DNA of 33,164 nt from a virus: positions 1-33,164 of IMG/VR virus record IMGVR_UViG_3300017779_000065; one strand, written 5' to 3'. Both the position numbers and the translations under genes were made by a program. This document shows positions 1 through 32,693 of this stretch, piece after piece (the first letter of the stretch is position 1; every line of letters starts with the position of its first letter). The notes beneath the pieces were generated by a model. The model made no database searches, was not told the DNA's origin, and saw nothing but the letters and a program-made list of their open reading frames with translations.

Positions 1-165
1 CGAGCAACAGGTGCTCTTCCTATGTTTGATTTATGGTTCTCAGTAATGGGAACAATCGGATGGTTCGCAGTAGGAATGTTATGGCATGATAGAGCTTTAA
101 TCATGTTGAATGGCGCACTTATATTAGTATTAGTAATGGGATTAATGAAAGCATATTTGATATGA
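1..165 (+). CDS. C-terminal part of a small membrane protein
   Basis: An open frame runs from the first base of the window to a TGA at 163-165, giving 54 residues. The start lies outside the window. The visible part is very hydrophobic, with two probable membrane segments: about residues 9-27 (rich in F, W, V, G) and about 34-52 (rich in L, V, M). A short polar turn (HDR) separates them. The stop overlaps the next start as ATGA, so the gene is translationally coupled to its neighbour. I do not recognise the family. Hydrophobic character and coupling are seen directly; a role as a small phage inner-membrane protein is inference. Confidence 0.6.
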   Translation, partial: RATGALPMFDLWFSVMGTIGWFAVGMLWHDRALIMLNGALILVLVMGLMKAYLI

Positions 166-3923: not shown

Positions 3924-3947
3924 GCGGAACAATGGAGAACAATCACT

Positions 3948-4064
3948 ATGGACAGGATAATCATTGTCATACTCATACTCTCATTCTGTACAGTTGCATT
4001 GTGTAGTAAAGACCCTCATACTATAATACGAGATATGCGACAATCTACGGAAAAGGTACAATAA
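3948..4064 (+). CDS. Small membrane or signal-anchored peptide, 38 aa
   Basis: ATG 3948 has GGAG at 3934-3937 upstream. The peptide opens with one basic residue and a strong hydrophobic helix (DRIIIVILILSFCTVALC), followed by a short polar tail rich in Arg, Lys and Gln. This fits a signal anchor or a small secreted peptide; no good lipobox is visible. An ATG at 3932 in another frame gives only 24 residues and is less likely. It is probably the last gene of the operon begun at the 3518 promoter. Function unknown. Confidence 0.45.
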   Translation: MDRIIIVILILSFCTVALCSKDPHTIIRDMRQSTEKVQ

Positions 4065-4305
4065 AACATTGAGTCGTTGTGTTTAAAGTCTGCGGCCACT
4101 CGGCAATTTTCTGAGACACACTGAGATTACCCCATAGAGCATTCACAGCGTACACACAGCGTATGCTCCATCTAGCTGCATATGCAACACATCAAATAAC
4201 ATTCAAGCCAATCAGCATCGCCGAGCATCGCAACAAGCAAGCGGCCTGCAGTCATTCTACCCCTGATACAGTCTAAAAAAAATGAGTATATAACCAAATT
4301 AACCC
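4065..4305. other. Non-coding stretch, locally GC-richer
   Basis: I find no open frame longer than about 30 codons here on either strand. Base composition differs from the surroundings: 32 of 60 bases are G or C in 4201-4260. It contains short direct repeats (CACAGCGTA at 4144-4152 and 4155-4163; AGCATCGC at 4214-4221 and 4224-4231) and a TGCATATGCA palindrome at 4177-4186. It leads directly into the strong promoter at 4306. It may be a regulatory or RNA-coding segment, but I cannot assign one. Confidence 0.4.
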
Positions 4306-4334
4306 TTGACAAGTTTTGTATATACCTGTATAAT
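4306..4334 (+). promoter_or_regulatory. Perfect consensus sigma70 promoter
   Basis: TTGACA at 4306-4311 and TATAAT at 4329-4334 are separated by exactly 17 nt. This is the full bacterial housekeeping consensus, as used by early promoters of T4-like phages. Transcription would begin near 4341, about 37 nt before the ATG of the 49-aa peptide. Confidence 0.85.
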
Positions 4335-4377
4335 GACTCTGAGGGTCAAAAGAATAGCTGTATCTAAATAGATCATT

Positions 4378-4527
4378 ATGTGGCATCATCCGTCTTATTA
4401 CAAACGTCTCGCAGAAATACGCAGAGAGGAAGAGAAAAAAGAAAAGAAAAAGGCCTTGACAAAGGCTGAGTTATCTGATAGGATAGAAAAGCAAACTAAG
4501 GAAAGCATCAGCGATTGCTTAGAGTGA
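4378..4527 (+). CDS. Early 49-aa charged peptide
   Basis: This small frame is the first start codon downstream of the perfect sigma70 promoter. It begins MWHHPSYYKRLAEIRR and continues with a dense run of Glu and Lys (residues 17-29) and a second amphipathic stretch (LTKAELSDRIEKQTKES). It is almost certainly helical, perhaps a coiled coil. There is no membrane segment or cysteine cluster. No clear ribosome-binding site precedes it, which is not rare in this window. Small charged early phage proteins often bind host proteins, but here that is only an inference from position and composition. Confidence 0.55.
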   Translation: MWHHPSYYKRLAEIRREEEKKEKKKALTKAELSDRIEKQTKESISDCLE

Positions 4528-4841
4528 TTCCTTTCTTTGCATTCTCTATGGCATTCTGAATTAAGGATGTTGTGGCCCACATAGGTTTCTCACCGAAAGT
4601 TCTCTCATTAGAGTGTGGGGTGGAAGTTTCAGACACTGCCATAGAGATCATTCATCATACGCAATAGTTGTACGGGCGCCTTATATCAAAGGTGGTGCTG
4701 GTAATCTATAAAGTACAGTAGACCTTTGTATATGTCGCAGAGGGTTATTCATCTGAGAGAACGCAAAGACACTGCCCCCCTAAAACTGAGCGTAGTTCAT
4801 GTACATGTGACCTCTCAAAATTTTGGGATATATTTTTTTAC
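4528..4841. other. Non-coding stretch before the tRNA
   Basis: No convincing gene is present; the longest forward frame (4732-4845, 37 codons) lacks a ribosome-binding site and any recognisable character. The stretch contains AGACACTGCC twice (4631-4640 and 4767-4776), a CATGTACATG palindrome (4798-4807), and near its end an AT-rich hairpin with a T run. It would be transcribed from the 4306 promoter as a long 3' region of the peptide mRNA or as an untranslated RNA. Confidence 0.4.
4814..4839 (+). terminator. Possible weak intrinsic terminator
   Basis: CTCAAAATTTTGGG can fold into a short hairpin (C-G, T-G and A-T pairs), followed by ATA and a T-rich tract ending in seven Ts at 4833-4839. 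It lies just upstream of the tRNA promoter, where a terminator would make sense. The stem is AT-rich and short, so it is weak. Confidence 0.25.
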
Positions 4842-4870
4842 TTGACTTGGTAATGCGAATGTGTTATATT
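4842..4870 (+). promoter_or_regulatory. sigma70-type promoter for the tRNA
   Basis: TTGACT at 4842-4847 and TATATT at 4865-4870 have a 17-nt spacer. Transcription would start near 4877, about 17 nt upstream of the mature tRNA. Confidence 0.7.
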
Positions 4871-4893
4871 GACAATACAACGTGTGGGTGTAT

Positions 4894-4970
4894 GATCTCG
4901 TAGCTCAGTTGGATAGAGCAATAGTCTTCTAAACTATAGGTCGTAGGTTCGAATCCTACCGAGATCGCCA
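4894..4970 (+). tRNA. tRNA-Arg (anticodon TCT)
   Basis: The 77-nt sequence folds as a standard cloverleaf: acceptor GATCTCG pairs fully with CGAGATC; D stem GCTC/GAGC with the loop GG; anticodon stem ATAGT/ACTAT with loop CTTCTAA (anticodon TCT); T stem GTAGG/CCTAC with loop TTCGAAT; discriminator G and an encoded CCA. It reads AGA, which is by far the most visible arginine codon in the phage structural genes here. It is the only tRNA in the window and has its own sigma70-like promoter, so it probably supplements a low-abundance host tRNA. Confidence 0.95.
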
Positions 4971-5021
4971 CTCGTATTAATCTAACACTTTGAGTCGTTC
5001 TTGTTTTGTTCTACATATGTT

Positions 5022-5066
5022 CTAGGTCAGCGAGCGAAAAAGTGTTGTGAATCCTAGCGTTTTTTT
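5022..5066 (+). terminator. Possible terminator after the tRNA
   Basis: CTAGG (5022-5026) can pair with CCTAG (5053-5057), followed by CG and a run of seven Ts (5060-5066). A wider inverted repeat, AACACTTT (4984-4991) and AAAGTGTT (5039-5046), could form a competing structure. The position between the tRNA and the next promoter fits a terminator, but the loop is long and the stem short. Confidence 0.3.
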
Positions 5067-5069
5067 CTA

Positions 5070-5098
5070 TTGACAAGGTGGGCGATTTCTGATAGTAT
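5070..5098 (+). promoter_or_regulatory. sigma70-type early promoter
   Basis: TTGACA at 5070-5075 and TAGTAT at 5093-5098 are 17 nt apart. Transcription would begin near 5105, 20 nt before ATG 5125. It probably drives the operon of four small genes through 6116. Confidence 0.75.
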
Positions 5099-5124
5099 AT
5101 TTGTATATGATAAAAAACTATACA

Positions 5125-5280
5125 ATGAAAAAGTACGCAGTAAGATTAAAAAGATTACAATCACGAATCGATACTGCAAAACAAGTATTATATTCGGATG
5201 CAAACGCAAAGAAAACTTTGTTCGATGTAATGCAAGAGATCAATCAACTACCAATGAAGAGAGGAATATATGTCAGATAA
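5125..5280 (+). CDS. Hypothetical 51-aa helical protein
   Basis: This is the first gene after the early promoter. The peptide is basic at the N-terminus (KKYAVRLKRLQSRI) and has heptad-like hydrophobic spacing (L, L, I, V, L), which suggests a helical hairpin or coiled coil. It overlaps the next gene by 11 nt. A longer frame in another phase over the same region begins with a TTG inside the promoter -35 box and is not credible. No clear ribosome-binding site is seen. Family unknown. Confidence 0.5.
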   Translation: MKKYAVRLKRLQSRIDTAKQVLYSDANAKKTLFDVMQEINQLPMKRGIYVR

Positions 5281-5688: not shown

Positions 5689-6116
5689 TGTTTATATTTA
5701 AAAAAGATACATGGATATTAATCGCATGTTGTTTTGCGTTTATGTTATTAACGGAACCTGTAAGGTCTGAAGAGTGGATAACTAAAAAAGGGAATTGGAA
5801 AGTAATACATTCGGAAAAAATATATGTCAATGTTGAAAAGAGAATTGAGACAGGAAAGACATATACTTGTAAGGATGTACCTGATCATTCAGATCAAGTC
5901 GGAAAAGCAATTATACTGGCAATCGCAGGTAGTATGATTGATAGTGAACATGCCATACTAGGGGCGTTTACAGGATTGTTAACAGGAAATGTCACTGTGA
6001 AAAAGGTATGTTATGACTCAATTTCATATGAAACATATGTCGAGAGAGAATATTCTCATACATTAATTACTCTTTCTAACGGAAAAATAGAAGTTCAAAA
6101 GAGAATACAAGAATAA
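5688..6116 (+). CDS. Secreted or membrane protein with glycine-rich hairpin
   Basis: The 142-aa protein begins with a basic N-terminus and a hydrophobic segment (residues 8-22, WILIACCFAFMLL), followed by a likely signal cleavage near EPVRS-EEW. Residues 71-100 are a Gly/Ala-spaced hydrophobic stretch (KAIILAIAG, then ILGAFTGLLTG) separated by a short charged turn, like a glycine-zipper membrane hairpin. Cysteines at 61 and 108 flank this stretch and could form a disulfide. The C-terminus is beta-like. It is the last gene of the early operon, immediately before a late promoter. A periplasmic or envelope role is inferred; no enzyme motif is visible. Confidence 0.65.
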   Translation: MFIFKKDTWILIACCFAFMLLTEPVRSEEWITKKGNWKVIHSEKIYVNVEKRIETGKTYTCKDVPDHSDQVGKAIILAIAGSMIDSEHAILGAFTGLLTGNVTVKKVCYDSISYETYVEREYSHTLITLSNGKIEVQKRIQE

Positions 6117-6169: not shown

Positions 6170-6931
6170 ATGGCATCGTATTGTGTATCAGGTCAAACTC
6201 AAGAGTATCTAGGGTTCGCAGAATATTTAATATATCAAACTCTATTTTCATCTATCAAGGCAACAACGCCTGTACAAACTAAGACAGAAGAAAATTCTAA
6301 AGACTACGATTTAATTGTAGGAAGTCATGTGGCATCAATGGCCGCAGATGATGATCTAGATAATACAGATAGTGGAAGAGCTTGGTCATGTACTGATAAG
6401 TTTGCTCTTGATGGTCTCGCAAATGCTGCCGCTTTAAAATCAGCAGTAGATGCTCGTATTACAAAATGTAATGCATCATGGTCACACACAGTAGATAAAA
6501 TTGTTTATCGAACATATAGAACAACAAATTACAATACTCAATTATATGGAAGTGCTTGGTTAAAAACTGAAACAGATTCAGTTGTCACTACATCTTACGA
6601 TAAAGTTATAGGTGCAGGCGATAAAGTAATTCATGTAAGTTGGGATGACACTTCAGATTCAAATTCACACTTCCTAAGAACAATGGCAAGATACGAAGCA
6701 ATGGACAATGGTGCAGGTGTTGATTGGGATGAAAGAAAAAAAGCATACGCAAGAAATATACTTGCAATTACTTACCCGTCAACTGCTAATGATTACAAAC
6801 TATGTATTGATAAAATTCTAAACAAAGACGATACTGAGTATGCTGGTCTTTGTACATTTCTAGGAGTATCTGGTATATCATCAGCGACTTGGAAAACTTA
6901 TGTAGATGCTTACTTGACAGCTATTGCTTAA
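6170..6931 (+). CDS. Late 253-aa protein, C-terminal half like the tandem pair
   Basis: This protein is the first gene after a late promoter. The N-terminal half (1-150) is rich in Thr, Ser and Asp and begins MASYCVSGQTQEYLGFAEYL; I do not recognise it. The C-terminal half follows the same layout as the paralogues at 1587 and 2231: a strand plus acidic turn (VIHVSWDDTSDSNSHFLR), a helix with DERKKAYARN, and a final EYAGLCTFLGVSGISSATWKTYV matching their EY..L..FL....W.K.YV ending. A shared, possibly sulfotransferase-like fold is inference. As a late gene it may be a virion component or may act with the oxygenase and radical SAM enzyme downstream. Confidence 0.6.
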   Translation: MASYCVSGQTQEYLGFAEYLIYQTLFSSIKATTPVQTKTEENSKDYDLIVGSHVASMAADDDLDNTDSGRAWSCTDKFALDGLANAAALKSAVDARITKCNASWSHTVDKIVYRTYRTTNYNTQLYGSAWLKTETDSVVTTSYDKVIGAGDKVIHVSWDDTSDSNSHFLRTMARYEAMDNGAGVDWDERKKAYARNILAITYPSTANDYKLCIDKILNKDDTEYAGLCTFLGVSGISSATWKTYVDAYLTAIA

Positions 6932-16866: not shown

Positions 16867-16886
16867 TATAAATATTTGTATAAATA
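16867..16886 (+). promoter_or_regulatory. Two tandem late promoters (TATAAATA twice)
   Basis: TATAAATA occurs at 16867-16874 and again at 16879-16886, 12 nt apart, in the short gap before gp8. AAAGGAAT follows at 16893-16900, upstream of ATG 16910. Two start points for a gene and its giant downstream partner would raise late expression. Confidence 0.75.
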
Positions 16887-16909: not shown

Positions 16910-18403
16910 ATGACAGCTATTATTACAGAAAAATTTAGACAACACAACGCAGAGCAATTCTTCGAATCATTCTCTGAAGCGTCTAATACAACTTATTATC
17001 TCTTTATCGGTAAGTCTTTACCATACACAACAGGAACAACAGGGGGTAGCGATAGTTCCCCACCAACACCAGCAGACAGTGTTTCTGGTGAGTTCTATAA
17101 TTGGGATGCAATGTTAGCTGCCAAAAAGATTGCAACAACAGATGTATCATTTGCTCTGTCAAGAGTTAACTTTGCAAACGCAACAATTTACGATATGTAC
17201 GATGATACAATTTCATCATCGAATACTACAACATCTGGTGCATCAAGTTTATATGCTGGTAATTTTTATTTCATTACATCTACAAACAATGTATATAAAG
17301 TTTTAGATAATAATAATGGTGTTGCATATTCAGGTTCTGAACCATCGAATACAGGAACATCACCTTTCGCATCTGGTGGATACATTTTAAAATATATGTA
17401 CAATGTGACTGCCTCAGAAGCAACAAAATTTTTAACAACAGATTATATGCCTGTATCTACTGACACAACAGTTAGTGCAGCTGCAACAGACGGAAAGATT
17501 GAGTCTCTTGTAGTCACAGCAGGTTCAGGTTATACTAACGGAACATATTACGCACCAATCTTTGGTGACGGAACAAGTCAAGGAACATCTTCAGGCGCAA
17601 TAGCTAGACTTACAATATCAGGTGGTGCGATTGCATCATTTGGTTTAACTGCTGGAACAGACACAACAATTCACGCAGGTGGTGCCGCATACACATTCGG
17701 TAATATAAGTTTATCAAATGTATTTTCAGATGCAGCTTTATCATCAAGTGCTTCTGTTGGTTCTGGTACAGGTGGAGCAGTAAGAGTTGTTATCTCGCCA
17801 AAAGGTGGACATGGTAAAGATGCAGTAAAAGAATTAGGTGGTCACTTCGTGATTACTAACACAACACTCGCACAAGCAGAAGGCGATGACTTAACAGTCG
17901 CAAACGATTTTAGACAAGTTGGTATTGTCACTGACCCATACAACTATGGTACAACAACAGTTGCAAGTTCAAGCACAGCAAGAATGACTTATGTAGTTAA
18001 GATGAGTTCATCATCAGGTACTTTTGATGTTGATGAAGAAATTACACAAGCAACAACTGGCGCAGTTGGTAGAGTTGTAGAGTGGGACAGTTCTAGAAGT
18101 TTATTATATTATTCGCAAGAAAGATTTAGTACATACGGTACAGCCGCAACAACACAATCTTACACAGCGTTTAGTGGAACAAATACAATAACAGGTTCAA
18201 CATCTAGCGCAACAGGAACACCATCTTCAACTTCAAGTGAAACAGTCACACTTGCAGGTGGGAATACTGTAGTATTTACAAGTGGATACGCAAACCCAGA
18301 GTTGCAACCAGATAGTGGAAATATAGTTTACATTGAAAATAGAAAACCCATTCAAAGGGTATCAGATCAAACGGAAGACATAAAGATCATTATTGAGTTT
18401 TAG
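16910..18403 (+). CDS. gp8: Baseplate wedge protein gp8
   Basis: The start of the 497-aa protein (IITEKFRQHNAEQFFESF, then TYYLFIGKSLPY) matches the start of T4 gp8 (IVTSKFRTEKMLNFYNS, ITFGRSEPW). The end (VYIENRKPIQRVSDQTEDIKI) matches T4 gp8's YMENRPPI...DQTEEINI. Between them PPTPADSV, FYNWDAMLAAKKI and GGYILKYMYNV mirror the gp8 core. It is longer than T4 gp8 (334 aa) because of Ser/Thr/Gly-rich insertions, one of which carries the GE.I.T.A.TGAVGRVV element near residue 375. gp8 forms an outer wedge dimer in the baseplate. Confidence 0.85.
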   Translation: MTAIITEKFRQHNAEQFFESFSEASNTTYYLFIGKSLPYTTGTTGGSDSSPPTPADSVSGEFYNWDAMLAAKKIATTDVSFALSRVNFANATIYDMYDDTISSSNTTTSGASSLYAGNFYFITSTNNVYKVLDNNNGVAYSGSEPSNTGTSPFASGGYILKYMYNVTASEATKFLTTDYMPVSTDTTVSAAATDGKIESLVVTAGSGYTNGTYYAPIFGDGTSQGTSSGAIARLTISGGAIASFGLTAGTDTTIHAGGAAYTFGNISLSNVFSDAALSSSASVGSGTGGAVRVVISPKGGHGKDAVKELGGHFVITNTTLAQAEGDDLTVANDFRQVGIVTDPYNYGTTTVASSSTARMTYVVKMSSSSGTFDVDEEITQATTGAVGRVVEWDSSRSLLYYSQERFSTYGTAATTQSYTAFSGTNTITGSTSSATGTPSSTSSETVTLAGGNTVVFTSGYANPELQPDSGNIVYIENRKPIQRVSDQTEDIKIIIEF

Positions 18404-27693: not shown

Positions 27694-28368
27694 ATGAAAG
27701 TAAGCACAAACGATGGTGCAACCCATGAAGTGGTTAAACCTGTTAAAACAACCCCACAGATAAAAGTTGCGAATTACTCTAACGAAGATTCTACAATTAA
27801 AAATCTTACAAAAGAAACTTTTGCTCACGCAGAGTTTATCAATAACGATAGAACAGTTTGTAAAATATATTGGAAGAACCCAGATGGTCATGGAAACGTA
27901 GATAAAGAGTTAGATCACTTTACAGTAAATCTAGAAGATACAACAGACGACGGCAAAGAACACCCTTACATTACAAAACTTTTCGAGTTAACAACTCTTG
28001 ATGAAATGCATGAGAACACTTGGAATAGAATGAAAGGTCAACAAAAAATGTGGCGTGAGTTTGCTATTAAAATTGCAAAACAAGACGGACTAATTATTGA
28101 CCCTGTTGCTTATTATGACTCCGATACACAATCAGCAAAACTAGATACTAAGTTTTTTGGACAAACACTACAATTATTGTTTGAAGATTTTGATGTAGAA
28201 AAACAAAAAGAAGATTTGTTTATTATTAAGTTAGCTGCATTTGAATTAGATATGGTTAAGTCATCTAACGATAGAGAAAGAAAAACAAGACTTAGAAAAG
28301 CAAAAACACCTCTTGAAGTATTAAGTATATTACTTGAATTAAAAGAGATAACAGAAATCCCTGTTTAA
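27694..28368 (+). CDS. Hypothetical 224-aa protein
   Basis: A good ribosome-binding site (AGGAG at 27682-27686) precedes ATG 27694. The N-terminal half is beta-like and polar; the middle has NTWNRMKGQQKMWREFAIKIAKQDG. The C-terminal half is helical and charged (LLFEDFDVEKQKEDLFIIKLAAFELD, RERKTRLRKAKTPLEVLSILLELKE). I do not recognise the family. The C-terminal charged helices suggest an interaction or assembly protein. The gene ends head-on with the minus-strand glycosyltransferase gene, and the two stop codons overlap. Confidence 0.65.
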   Translation: MKVSTNDGATHEVVKPVKTTPQIKVANYSNEDSTIKNLTKETFAHAEFINNDRTVCKIYWKNPDGHGNVDKELDHFTVNLEDTTDDGKEHPYITKLFELTTLDEMHENTWNRMKGQQKMWREFAIKIAKQDGLIIDPVAYYDSDTQSAKLDTKFFGQTLQLLFEDFDVEKQKEDLFIIKLAAFELDMVKSSNDRERKTRLRKAKTPLEVLSILLELKEITEIPV

Positions 28369-29186
28369 GAATCTAAAATATTAAAAACTCTCTCAAAATC
28401 TTTTGTGATAACATGTACTAGACAAGAGTATTTTATTCTTGCATCTACTGTATCTGTTAATACTAGTTCATGCCAATGTGGGGGAACATCAAGAACAGGT
28501 ACTTTGTATTTGTCTATCATATAAGAAGCAAAAACTTCATTGTTATAAAAATATCTTTTATCAATATGTTTAATACTATCAATTAGTTTTTTACATTCAT
28601 CCATTCTCTCAGAAAATTTAAGTTGATCTCTTGCAATATGATTACCACCAAATATTCCTGTATTAACAATAACATTCTGAGTAAGTGGTACACCATCTAC
28701 TTTCATCATATCTTTTTTCATTAGACCTTTAATCAACCAATGATATTCATCTAGTTCTTTTAATTGATCTTTATATTCTTTTGATTGTGTTCTAATAGAA
28801 AACTCATGTCTAGTTTCTAATTTAGTTCTTAATCCAACTCGTTCATTAAAATCATCAATAGGAATGAAATGAGTAATAAATTTATTAAAATCAAATTTGT
28901 CAAATATATTAATATTGGTATTAGGAATAACATCAAAGTCAAGATATAATACTCTGTCATACTCATTACAAAACTCTTCCCATTTTTGAATCTTGTATAT
29001 ATTTAAATCATCATACTTAGTAGAGTTTGGTGTTAGTAATTTAAAATCTGCATTACATATTTCAGCATAATTTTTTAAACCGTCTCTTAATCGATGAAAA
29101 TGTTTTTCGAATTGTATTGAGTTATGACTTCTCTTTTTTGTAGTGTCAGTAATCTTTGTGTAAATGCTAAATATTAGATCGTTCAT
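28365..29186 (-). CDS. Glycosyltransferase-like protein B (GT-A fold, DFD)
   Basis: I start this 273-aa protein at the ATG at 29186 rather than an in-frame ATG at 29225. GGAGAG lies just upstream of 29186, and the paralogue begins with similar residues (IYSIY versus IFSIY). The core has EYDRVLYLDFDVIPNT with a DxD motif at 83-85, and VNTGIFGG at 174-181: the metal- and acceptor-site pattern of nucleotide-sugar-dependent transferases. The end (VPPHWHELVLTD) resembles the paralogue's VQWLDSKWHYFYD. It probably transfers a sugar to host or phage surface glycan or to phage DNA/protein; the substrate is unknown. It overlaps the upstream paralogue by 20 nt and ends in the stop of the converging gene. 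Confidence 0.75.
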   Translation of the reverse strand: MNDLIFSIYTKITDTTKKRSHNSIQFEKHFHRLRDGLKNYAEICNADFKLLTPNSTKYDDLNIYKIQKWEEFCNEYDRVLYLDFDVIPNTNINIFDKFDFNKFITHFIPIDDFNERVGLRTKLETRHEFSIRTQSKEYKDQLKELDEYHWLIKGLMKKDMMKVDGVPLTQNVIVNTGIFGGNHIARDQLKFSERMDECKKLIDSIKHIDKRYFYNNEVFASYMIDKYKVPVLDVPPHWHELVLTDTVDARIKYSCLVHVITKDFERVFNILDS

Positions 29187-30066
29187 ATGCTCTCCAACAA
29201 TAATCAAATTCTTTATTAATCGCATGGATTATTTTTGTATCTTTAGGAATGTGTAATTCCGAATCGTAAAAATAATGCCACTTACTATCTAACCATTGTA
29301 CTGGCACCTCATTAGATACTAGTTTATATGAAAAGATAGTTTCATTATCAAATCCAAATGTATCTGTTATGTTTTTAGGATACATACTATCTGATTTATA
29401 TTCCTCTGTTTTTAGATACTTCATTATATCATAAGTTGTATCAATGTCAACAAAAAAGCCTAGTCTATTCAAACTTTCTTTTGTTGCACCAATAATCCCT
29501 GTGTTAACAACATTACATTGAGGGTCATAATCTGTTTCTTCTAACATTGCCATTGCATTAAAATATTTTGCAGAGGGTGATCTTATTGTTCCTTTAATAT
29601 CAAAAAGTGTTTGACCACTGTGTCGTATCTGTTTGTTGTTATGCACGATTGCTATACCTTTACTTAAATCCCATGCATCAAAAAAAGATTCATTTGTCAT
29701 TGGAACAGTATCAAAATCTAAGTATAATACTTCATCATATTTTTCTGCAAGATCATAGAGTAAATGAATCTTATATTCATTCACAATATTGTATGAAGTA
29801 ATAAAAGGATAGTTTGTATTATAGAATTGTTTTAGTTTTTTGTACTTTTCATCATACTCAAATAGTTTAAAATCAGCACCAATTGATTCTGCATATTTCT
29901 TTTTACATTCAACTAATCTACTATAATGTTCTTTAAATTTCTTTTTAGTATTGATGTTAGTAGGAGTCTCATTTTCTCTTCTTATTGCTTTATCAAAGAA
30001 ATCCAACTCTTTTTCAGGTATATCAATATATATGCTGTAAATAACTCTTGACAATGTATCATCCAT
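29167..30066 (-). CDS. Glycosyltransferase-like protein A (GT-A fold, DFD)
   Basis: The 299-aa protein is the first gene of the minus-strand pair. EKYDEVLYLDFDTVPMTNESFFDAWD contains the DxD motif at 117-119, and CNVVNTGIIGATKE (185-198) is the matching acceptor-side loop. The N-terminal ADFKLFEYDEKYKKL corresponds to ADFKLLTPNSTKYDDL in the downstream copy, so the two genes are a diverged tandem duplication. A perfect sigma70 promoter lies upstream, with a leader of only about 16 nt and no clear ribosome-binding site. It is expected to be an early enzyme modifying host or phage glycans. The family call is good; the substrate is not known. Confidence 0.75.
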   Translation of the reverse strand: MDDTLSRVIYSIYIDIPEKELDFFDKAIRRENETPTNINTKKKFKEHYSRLVECKKKYAESIGADFKLFEYDEKYKKLKQFYNTNYPFITSYNIVNEYKIHLLYDLAEKYDEVLYLDFDTVPMTNESFFDAWDLSKGIAIVHNNKQIRHSGQTLFDIKGTIRSPSAKYFNAMAMLEETDYDPQCNVVNTGIIGATKESLNRLGFFVDIDTTYDIMKYLKTEEYKSDSMYPKNITDTFGFDNETIFSYKLVSNEVPVQWLDSKWHYFYDSELHIPKDTKIIHAINKEFDYCWRAYERSNI

Positions 30067-30074
30067 TCTGGTAT

Positions 30075-30082
30075 TATAAATA
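30075..30082 (+). promoter_or_regulatory. Late promoter for the epimerase (TATAAATA)
   Basis: An exact octamer lies 34 nt upstream of ATG 30117. It overlaps the expected start of the minus-strand early transcript, which begins near 30082. Confidence 0.7.
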
Positions 30083-30088
30083 TGTTAT

Positions 30089-30117
30089 ATTATAGAATAT
30101 TTAGATTGGATTGTCAA
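30089..30117 (-). promoter_or_regulatory. Perfect consensus sigma70 promoter, minus strand
   Basis: On the minus strand, TTGACA (+ strand 30112-30117) and TATAAT (+ strand 30089-30094) are 17 nt apart, the full housekeeping consensus. The -35 box reaches the first base of the epimerase start codon. Transcription would start near 30082 and run into the two glycosyltransferase genes. Confidence 0.85.
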
Positions 30118-30938
30118 TGATTATTTTGATTACAGGTGATAAAGGATTTATTGGGTCTCATCTTAGACAGTCGTTAGTAAGTGAAGGTCACATTGTCTTA
30201 GGATTTGATCATGTAGATGATTATGATGTCGGTAATATTACTGAGGATATTGTTAAAAAAGTAAACAAGATTGTTCACTTAGCTGCATACGCAGATGTTC
30301 GGGCAAGTATGGAAGACCCTAACAAATGGTATGAAAACAATGTAGTAAAATCGAGTCGTCTATTTGAATTATGCAATAAGTTTAATACACAATGCGTATA
30401 TGCTTCATCGTCATGTGTGAAAGAATGGTGGAAGTCGCCATATGGTACTTCTAAAAAAGTAATGGAAGATATGGCAAATGTGCATGGACGATTTGTTGGT
30501 TTAAGATTTTCTAATGTTTATGGTGATAATGGTAGAGAGACAATGCTACTACCTTTGATGTTAAAAGGAAAACTTAAATACTCTACTAATCATACTAGAG
30601 ATTTTGTTCATGTTAATGATGTAGTAGATTGCATAAAACTATTTCTAAAAATGGACAACTTTGACAATCTTGATGAATTAGTTTATAATGTGGGAACAGG
30701 AACAGGAAGAAGAATATCTGATCTTGTAAAACAGTATGGATATGATGTACCAATTACAGAAGGTGACCCATGTGAAATGAAAGATAACACGGCAGACAAC
30801 GCTAATCTCTTAAAATTAGGGTGGTCGCCAAAAGAGAATTTAGATAAATACTTAAAAGGAAAATTAAATGGCGATACCAACAACAAAGAGTACATTCAAG
30901 GATTACTGCCTAAGAAATCTAGGGTTCGGAGTAATTGA
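30117..30938 (+). CDS. NAD-dependent nucleotide-sugar epimerase/dehydratase
   Basis: This 273-aa extended short-chain dehydrogenase starts at ATG 30117; a TTG six bases upstream is in the same frame but less likely. Motifs: Rossmann loop GDKGFIG (7-13), HLAAYADV (54-61), the catalytic serine in ASSSC (96-100), YGTSK with Y109/K113, FSNVYGDNG (131-139) and RDFVHVNDVV (161-170). Such enzymes epimerise, dehydrate or decarboxylate UDP-, dTDP- or GDP-sugars. The specific sugar cannot be told. It lies back-to-back with the glycosyltransferases and could supply their donor. It has a late promoter. Its last 24 codons overlap gp13 in another frame. Confidence 0.85.
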   Translation: MIILITGDKGFIGSHLRQSLVSEGHIVLGFDHVDDYDVGNITEDIVKKVNKIVHLAAYADVRASMEDPNKWYENNVVKSSRLFELCNKFNTQCVYASSSCVKEWWKSPYGTSKKVMEDMANVHGRFVGLRFSNVYGDNGRETMLLPLMLKGKLKYSTNHTRDFVHVNDVVDCIKLFLKMDNFDNLDELVYNVGTGTGRRISDLVKQYGYDVPITEGDPCEMKDNTADNANLLKLGWSPKENLDKYLKGKLNGDTNNKEYIQGLLPKKSRVRSN

Positions 30939-31677
30939 CATCAATGTTTCAGACGATCAAGTAGATGATCGTATAGATGAGGCTTTACAATATTTTTCAA
31001 CATATCATTTTGATCAAGTTGAAAAGATGTATCTCAAATATGAAATCACAGAGGCAGATATAACTAGAGCAAGAGGAAACTCAACAACTTCAGCAACAGA
31101 TGTTTCTGATACTTCAGTCACAGCTACTTTCAAAGAAGGTAATAATTTTATTCCTATGCCAACAACTGTACTTTCAGTAGTACAAGTATTTCCATTTGAC
31201 AATGCCGCATCAACTAATATGTTTGATATTAAATATCAAATGAGACTAAATGATTTGTATGATTTTTCATCAACATCAATGATACATTATGAAATGACAA
31301 TGCAACATTTAGATTATCTTTCACATATTTTAGTAGGACAAAACCCTATAAGATTTTCTGAACATCAACAAAGATTGTATATTGATATGGATTGGGAATC
31401 AGTTTCAGCAGGTGAGTATTTAATTATTGAATGCTATAGAAAACTAGACCCAACTACTTACACTGATATTTTTAACAACATATATTTAAAAAGATATGCG
31501 TCTGCATTAATCAAAAAACAATGGGGTTCCAATTTAAACAAATTTCAAAATGTTCAATTACTTGGTGGGGTCACAATGAATGGTGATCAGATTTACCAAC
31601 AAGCAACAGACGAAATTAGAGAGATAGAACAATATATTGATAATCATCAATACCCAGACATGATAATTAAAGGATAA
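30868..31677 (+). CDS. gp13: Neck protein gp13
   Basis: The 269-aa protein begins AIPTTKSTFKDYCLRNLGFGVIDINVSDDQVDDRIDEALQYF, the conserved N-terminus of marine T4-type gp13, and ends with the Lys-Gln-Trp-Gly helix region (SALIKKQWGSNLNKFQNVQLLGGVTMNG) typical of the family. gp13 with gp14 builds the neck that joins head to tail after DNA packaging. AAAGGA at 30855-30860 is a good ribosome-binding site for ATG 30868, even though this lies inside the epimerase gene (71-nt overlap). Confidence 0.9.
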   Translation: MAIPTTKSTFKDYCLRNLGFGVIDINVSDDQVDDRIDEALQYFSTYHFDQVEKMYLKYEITEADITRARGNSTTSATDVSDTSVTATFKEGNNFIPMPTTVLSVVQVFPFDNAASTNMFDIKYQMRLNDLYDFSSTSMIHYEMTMQHLDYLSHILVGQNPIRFSEHQQRLYIDMDWESVSAGEYLIIECYRKLDPTTYTDIFNNIYLKRYASALIKKQWGSNLNKFQNVQLLGGVTMNGDQIYQQATDEIREIEQYIDNHQYPDMIIKG

Positions 31678-31679
31678 CC

Positions 31680-32693
31680 ATGGCTGTCAACAGTGCATTT
31701 AAAACATCAGGTCTTGCTGCATCGACAAGTGAACAGGATTTATACTCTAATCTAATTAGAGAGTCAATTCAAATTCACGGTCATGATGTTAACTATATGG
31801 ATAGAACATTGCAAGCCAGAGACGATATTTTTGGCGAAGACTCCCTTTCAAAGTTTGAAAAACAACAAACTATTGAAATGTATGTTGAAGATGCAGAAGG
31901 TGGTTATCAAGGAGAAAAAGAATTAATACAACAATTCGGTTTAGAGAATAGAAACGAAATTACATTTGTTGTACATAGAAAAAGATTTGACGATGTTGCT
32001 CATCAACTAGATTTAGAAAGTGGAACAGACACTACTGAAGGTTCAGTCCTATTAGAGTCAGGTACACTTGCACAACATCGTTTCGGAGTACAGTCAGCAA
32101 CTTTTGATTCAGCGTATTTAAGAAACGAAGATGCTACTTTAGGAACATATAACAACAGACCTAAAGAAGGTGATTTAGTATTTCATCCTGTACTTAATAA
32201 GTTATTTGAAGTTTCATTCGTAGATCACGATGAACCATTTCATCAATTAGATAACAACCCTGTTTACAAATTAAGATGTAAACAATTTGAATATAGTTCA
32301 GAGGAATTAAATACAGGTGTTGCAAATATTGATGCGATTGAAGATGCGTTAACTCAAGATGTTCTAAATCATCAATTCACTCTTGAGACAACTTCTACAT
32401 ACAACGAAAGTGTATCACTTGAGTTCTTTACAAACGGAACATATACAGACTCGTTATTAATGGAAGACAACGATACTGTAGTTATGGAAGATGATAATTC
32501 ATCGGTTGGTGAAAACATACTTCTAGAAAATCCTGCTGACTCAGGTGACGATAGCTACTTATTAACGGAAGACTATATAGTAGGGGATATGTCAACAGAC
32601 AAGACAGCTCAAAACGAGTTGTTTGATGAACAAGATGATACAATATTAGATTTCACTGAAAGAAACCCATTCGGTGATGCTGGAGAATTATAA
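31680..32693 (+). CDS. gp14: Neck protein gp14 with C-terminal motif extension
   Basis: The 337-aa protein has the gp14 core: SEQDLYSNLIRESIQIHGHDVNYMDRTLQARDDIFGED, then VEDAEGGYQGEKELIQQFGLENRNEITFVVHRKRF and EGDLVFHPVLNKLFEVSFVDHDEPFHQLDNNPVYKLRCKQFEYSSEELNTG. After about residue 245 it carries a tail built from acidic elements (LLMEDNDTVVMEDDN, ENILLEN), before a final FDEQDDTILDFTERNPFGD block. It is longer than T4 gp14 (256 aa). It starts 2 nt after gp13 and overlaps gp15 by one base (TAATG). Confidence 0.9.
   Translation: MAVNSAFKTSGLAASTSEQDLYSNLIRESIQIHGHDVNYMDRTLQARDDIFGEDSLSKFEKQQTIEMYVEDAEGGYQGEKELIQQFGLENRNEITFVVHRKRFDDVAHQLDLESGTDTTEGSVLLESGTLAQHRFGVQSATFDSAYLRNEDATLGTYNNRPKEGDLVFHPVLNKLFEVSFVDHDEPFHQLDNNPVYKLRCKQFEYSSEELNTGVANIDAIEDALTQDVLNHQFTLETTSTYNESVSLEFFTNGTYTDSLLMEDNDTVVMEDDNSSVGENILLENPADSGDDSYLLTEDYIVGDMSTDKTAQNELFDEQDDTILDFTERNPFGDAGEL

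Follow-up and report, generated by a model that had tools for sequence, protein, structure and literature searches.

How does one short junction in a phage genome serve transcription in two opposite directions? The question is raised by IMG/VR virus record IMGVR_UViG_3300017779_000065, whose 33,164 nucleotides were analysed as one stretch, called the window here, and in which two glycosyltransferase genes on the minus strand diverge from an epimerase gene and two neck genes on the plus strand. The nearest named records to the window are T4-like phages under Kyanoviridae, notably the Pelagibacter phages HTVC008M and Mosig. A sequence-only reading had proposed a built-in early-to-late switch at this junction, from transfer to synthesis of a sugar, with a minus-strand sigma70 promoter acting early on the glycosyltransferases and an overlapping plus-strand late promoter, TATAAATA, acting late on the epimerase. 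The genes and motifs are the following.

28365-29225, minus strand: GT1, second GT8-like glycosyltransferase, overlapping the end of GT2
29167-30054, minus strand: GT2, GT8-like glycosyltransferase, probable start TTG at 30054, frame open up to ATG at 30066
30048-30053, plus strand: TTGACA, -35 box of the predicted plus promoter (epimerase, gp13, gp14), over GT2 codons 1-3
30069-30077, plus strand: TGn extension (TG at 30069-30070) and -10 box TATTAT (30072-30077) of the predicted plus promoter
30075-30082, plus strand: T4-type late promoter motif TATAAATA, overlapping the plus -10 box
about 30082 (minus) and about 30084 (plus): predicted transcription starts, placed by geometry only, 7 nt past each -10 box
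30094-30089, minus strand: TATAAT, -10 box of the predicted minus promoter (glycosyltransferases), 17-nt spacer from its -35 box
30117-30112, minus strand: TTGACA, -35 box of the predicted minus promoter; base 30117 belongs both to it and to the epimerase ATG (30117-30119)
30117-30938, plus strand: nucleotide-sugar epimerase/dehydratase family protein (PF01370, E 1.2e-29; phrog_540)
30868-31677, plus strand: gp13-like neck protein (phrog_211, head-tail adaptor), its start overlapping the end of the epimerase
31680-32693, plus strand: gp14-like neck protein, head closure (PF11649)

The two glycosyltransferases scored 24.2 and 19.9 bits against Pfam PF01501, below the curated cut-off of 24.3, and both are therefore called GT8-like only and not members of glycosyltransferase family 8; a GT2 profile found no match in the PDB at E 0.1. 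ATG 30066 is probably not where GT2 starts, since the first residues in the 20 relatives compared are M-S-(R/K), read from the codon that corresponds to TTG 30054. This start codon is TTG and not ATG in the window and its identical relatives, and the -35 hexamer is still intact there. On the other arm, the order epimerase-gp13-gp14 was found in 21 of 21 epimerase loci checked, across which an overlap of the epimerase end with the gp13 start (71 bases in the window, 30868-30938) was also present, as judged from open reading frames and matches.

A scan and a base-by-base recheck bore out the motifs that had been named, that is, the minus-strand TTGACA/17 nt/TATAAT, the late motif facing the epimerase and the minus -35 box touching the epimerase ATG, but a second, near-consensus sigma70 promoter on the plus strand had been missed. 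Against a sigma70 consensus which may differ from that of the SAR11 host itself, the minus promoter matches at 12 of 12 positions and the plus promoter (TTGACA/18 nt/TGn-TATTAT) at 11 of 12, and in both the -35 and -10 boxes lie 16-18 nt apart. They point towards each other from the two strands, each aimed past the other at its own diverging genes, and the junction is predicted to hold two host-type sigma70 promoters as mirror images, face to face, with starts about 2 bp apart. The window has four exact matches to TTGACA-16..18-TATAAT, where 300 dinucleotide shuffles averaged 0.11. Two of them, at 29450 (minus) and 30661 (plus), are intragenic and not conserved, so that a perfect match alone is no proof of a promoter and the notion that it might be was discarded. 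These two matches also lend something to the view that the junction boxes are not promoters at all, AT-rich DNA together with coding and translation-start constraints being enough to yield them.

Conservation of the junction among relatives

Relatives were IMG/VR loci carrying the genes of the window, and junctions were taken where both genes adjoin, giving 18 distinct sequences, one of them the window; identity falls as low as 57% for GT2 and 46% for the epimerase. L001, identical in its core, was merged with the window; L043 and L045, in which the epimerase is not adjacent, and loci without both genes or the epimerase start (e.g. L003, L014, L044, L046, L047) lie outside the set. The -35 box over the glycosyltransferase start (NTGTCAA; TTGACA on the plus strand) and the one at the epimerase start (TTGTCAATG) are each invariant in 18 of 18 junctions. 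Bases -6 to -1 before the epimerase ATG are likewise invariant in all 18, and further up the leader only 1 of 42 bases is; besides the -35 box, we know of no other reason for such a fixed spacer. Within GT2, the Ser2 codon is TCA in 20/20 full-length sequences, and of 28 invariant residues for which at least four codons exist, only 3 are encoded by one codon throughout.

A wider search for GT2 homologues, from which the best 80 of 332 were taken (76 new loci and 8 earlier ones, 58 after merging identical start regions), allowed the same start to be compared in other contexts. Among these 58 start regions, NTGTCAA at the GT2 start together with an upstream TTGACA was present in 21/21 non-redundant divergent junctions with the epimerase (20) or gp13 (1), while TGTCAA stood at the glycosyltransferase start in 0/5 with another divergent partner and 0/32 co-directional homologues (0/37 together). 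Of the co-directional homologues in this sample, 24/32 start ATGAAAAGA, and one of the 32 has TTGACA upstream too, which counts against reading the boxes as a pair. GT2 proteins from divergent junctions group in a single clade to which none of the four sampled outgroups belongs, and the contrast with other contexts is thus confounded with ancestry; the distribution of the boxes is best read as a single origin that appears to have been maintained under constraint.

In the IMG/VR collection at large, an exact consensus face-to-face pair was found in at least 33 stretches as against none for either of two control patterns, where 33 is a lower bound because the scan missed at least one true match (L071), and the control scans may miss likewise. 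Five of these stretches are window-type junctions (L135, L139, L144, L147, L148). The excess over the controls indicates that the design recurs; back-to-back consensus pairs are commoner, with at least 120. Taken with the invariant leader bases and the different starts of GT2 homologues in other contexts, the scans make it very improbable that AT-rich DNA and coding or translation-start constraints alone account for the boxes at the junction.

The -10 boxes are less uniform. The best -10 match at 16-18 nt averaged 4.78/6 on the plus and 4.94/6 on the minus strand over the 18 junctions, as compared with 3.57 and 3.58 of 6 in shuffled spacers, and 0 of 2000 shuffles were as high as the real set, a figure which is not a true probability because the sequences are related. 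Counting against the pair, the minus -10 box matches at only 4/6 in six junctions (L004, L006, L008, L009, L023, L024), of which L004 and L006 are among the nearest relatives of the window, and the plus -10 box does so in five (L029, L032, L037, L038, L039); 4/6 matches are common in AT-rich DNA, a point which also speaks for the non-promoter view.

In 19/19 cases (the 18 junctions and L071) the predicted starts lie 1-9 bp apart and never cross. The -10 boxes do not coincide but are spaced 4-12 bp apart, and each lies downstream of the start predicted for the other. In L071 the glycosyltransferase faces gp13 directly, with exact consensus boxes on both strands and TATAAATA outside the promoter pair, at 5975-5982, 18 nt before gp13. 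Where the epimerase is missing in this locus (5964-5990), a tiny frame, ATGTCAAGA... (M-S-R-H-I-N-S-I, stop), starts at the second -35 box and is possibly a remnant. The length of the junction core itself is variable (63, 66-71 bp), and this bears on another explanation, according to which TTGACA...TGTCAA would be the inverted-repeat operator of a putative regulator and not two -35 boxes. Such an operator would account for the two half-sites, whose letters are conserved above all other non-coding ones at the junction. It is improbable, since the half-sites keep no fixed spacing or helical phase, are identical to the -35 consensus of sigma70 and are accompanied on either strand, at 16-18 nt, by -10-like boxes more often than in shuffles. 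As far as these comparisons go, the conserved object of the junction is the predicted promoter pair and not the late motif, and the putative mirror arrangement is retained in every case where the glycosyltransferase arm and the epimerase or neck-gene arm were seen to face each other.

The late motif and its strand

TATAAATA occurs eight times on the plus strand of the window and never on the minus strand, each time 17-38 nt before a start codon (starts chosen by hand), whereas shuffled sequences carried a mean of 2.8 on the plus strand and reached eight or more in 0.3% of 300. With automatic gene calls, 7/8 sites in the window lie 10-60 nt before a start, a position taken by 4% of sites when 50 permuted 8-mers are counted, and the corresponding figures are 16/30 against 7% in Mosig and 7/21 against 7% in HTVC008M; the best single permuted 8-mer of the 50 reached 10 sites in Mosig and 6 in HTVC008M. 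The short distance to a start and the enrichment on the structural strand that mark T4-type late promoters were thus found at 8/8 sites in the window, and as a class TATAAATA looks like a genuine late motif of this phage. Two copies stand 12 bp apart ahead of the gene at 16910 (window 16867-16886).

At the junction itself the motif changes strand. It lies on the plus strand in 9/18 distinct junctions, on the glycosyltransferase strand in 6/18 and on neither in 3/18, so that it depends on the lineage which strand of this junction, if any, carries the motif. In the clade of the window it is kept together with the plus -10 box as TATTATAAATAT, and the junctions with a minus-strand TATAAATA form one fully supported clade. 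In the five longest loci of the latter (L032, L033, L036, L037, L039; 10.9-11.2 kb) it occurs just twice, at the junction and, 4.8-5.9 kb farther upstream, on the structural strand directly ahead of the 25568-type tail gene. By chance, TATAAATA would be expected in shuffled spacers at rates of 0.5-15% for each sequence and strand, and of 2.6-8.6% per sequence in the minus-motif clade, where its bases also sit within the epimerase leader. We consider the glycosyltransferase-strand motif likely to be functional in its clade. The constant order epimerase-gp13-gp14 means that a different downstream gene is no explanation for the change of strand.

These results bear directly on the proposed switch, in which overlap of an early minus sigma70 promoter with a late plus TATAAATA would turn the locus from the glycosyltransferases to the epimerase. 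Both motifs exist, TATAAATA behaves as a real late motif in the window and in both cultured phages, and its fusion with the -10 box is kept in the window's clade. The switch, however, needs the plus arm to be late only and a conserved plus-strand late motif, and the epimerase arm has a predicted sigma70 promoter of its own, with a -35 box that equals the minus one in conservation, so that host polymerase should be able to read either arm early; TATAAATA, for its part, is missing from some junctions and on the opposite strand in others. Sugar synthesis and transfer are, further, complementary, and a switch between them would make no obvious biochemical sense. What stands of the interpretation is that the opposed promoters overlap and that their complexes should exclude each other; an early-to-late switch between transfer and synthesis we regard as unlikely. 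A late shift towards the plus arm is possible in the window's own lineage. That arm runs into gp13 and gp14, structural neck genes which would need late expression anyway, and this may explain a late promoter there.

Proposed working of the junction and comparison with known systems

From the motifs, their positions, their conservation and the observed shift of the late motif, we infer promoter activity, exclusion and timing as follows. Probably, though by no means certainly, the junction holds two mutually exclusive early promoters by which host RNA polymerase is divided between the arms, and to which individual lineages have added late promoters. The plus promoter would fire right into epimerase-gp13-gp14 and the minus promoter left into both glycosyltransferases, and, as each -35 box sits at the point where the opposite gene begins to be translated, both mRNA leaders would be about 28-33 nt long in the window. 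With starts 1-9 bp apart that do not cross, each polymerase should cover the -10 box and start of the other promoter, so that a single complex would load at a time and each initiation would briefly block the opposite arm; this one-complex-at-a-time argument rests on the size of the RNA polymerase footprint. Early in infection host polymerase would serve both arms, apportioned by competition. Late, in the window's lineage, the motif fused to the plus -10 box would let the plus arm, neck genes included, dominate, and in other lineages the late motif would be absent from the junction or act on the glycosyltransferase side. More tentatively, and with considerable doubt, the junction may be a protein-free ratio device of marine T4-like phages, in which polymerase occupancy alone couples sugar transfer to sugar making and neck genes and the strand-changing late promoter decides the late arm.

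Face-to-face promoters are already known, and a junction of the window type in a phage is new as a variant. The bio and arg operons of E. coli also have face-to-face promoters. In plasmid RP4 the strong one of the opposed promoters trfAp and trbAp is described as inhibiting the weak one until repressors silence it (PMC7314908), and orf02p/orf02prev and repBp/repXp of RA3 are given the same layout (PMC9455977). The window junction resembles these, as they are described, in having two promoters aimed at each other over a short stretch; it differs in being a phage locus, in that both promoters are near consensus with their -35 boxes over opposite start codons, and in the phage late motif layered on top, with no repressor site identified at the junction. 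Opposed polymerases at the bidirectional promoters of E. coli, according to Warman and colleagues, cannot bind together and may compete, and the starts flank or lie within a shared -10 element, mostly 18 but also 10 or 23 bp apart (PMC12825309). There too one DNA stretch serves both directions, whereas the window-type junction has two distinct -10 boxes with the predicted starts between them, which ruled out a bidirectional promoter with a shared -10 box. If active, the junction would be a natural, compact and conserved test case for the sharing of RNA polymerase by two strong opposed promoters; the E. coli bidirectional promoters studied are reported to have low basal activity (PMC12825309).

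As compared with T4-type late promoters as they are described (PMC9004378, PMC3037559), the window has the exact TATAAATA, its nearness to a start codon and its bias to the structural strand in common, and differs in that TATAAATA overlaps a sigma70 -10 box and changes strand between lineages. Annotations of marine T4-like phages in the same two papers take sigma70 matches as early and TATAAAT as late promoters. A survey of pelagimyophages states that late promoters could not be predicted (PMC7029224), and the present counts are evidence for use of a T4-type late motif by this group. The accessible text of a pelagiphage transcriptome paper covers HTVC022P and HTVC027P and does not mention HTVC008M or the word promoter (PMC12753301). 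Among the papers listed in searches on face-to-face and bidirectional promoters, pelagiphage promoters or transcriptomes and cyanophage promoters, we recognised none with such an arrangement in phages.

Other cargo and other loci

The closest cultured relatives, HTVC008M and Mosig, have no such promoter pair, which counts against reading the boxes as one. HTVC008M has no TTGACA/TGTCAA pair at a similar distance anywhere in its genome, and in the four such pairs of Mosig the -10 boxes reach no more than 3/5, 2/3, 2/2 and 3/2 matches, one figure for each strand. A search for further relatives gave 323, of which the best 80 were taken; the 75 new ones were examined and the 55 with at least 1200 bases upstream listed. 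Among these best 80 of 323, minus-strand cassettes upstream of gp13 other than the glycosyltransferases (L070, L072, L080, L085, L121, L123), whose junctions were inspected by eye, have no pair, nor has that of HTVC008M, and the pair as a general feature of cargo at this locus was rejected. In the same six loci and in L054 (2674-5953), different minus-strand cargo occupies the gap that separates the tail from the neck genes, and in HTVC008M this consists of oxygenases and a ferrochelatase, which suggests that the gap is a hot spot for inverted cargo.

An exact consensus face-to-face promoter pair, with one -35 box inside the coding region, also stands at the start of another phage gene family, encoding proteins of 213-214 aa that begin M(T/N)YL(E/Q)IVN... 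(L130, L131, L137, L138, L141, L143, L149, L150, L154, L160, L161). Within the window, the gene-poor stretch 3930-5130 carries an exact consensus sigma70 promoter at 4306 (plus) and a tRNA-Arg (anticodon TCT) at 4894-4970, apart from which no Rfam family exceeded its threshold in the window. Lastly, L132 contains at 6245-6306 a perfect 62-bp palindrome with an exact consensus promoter on each strand.
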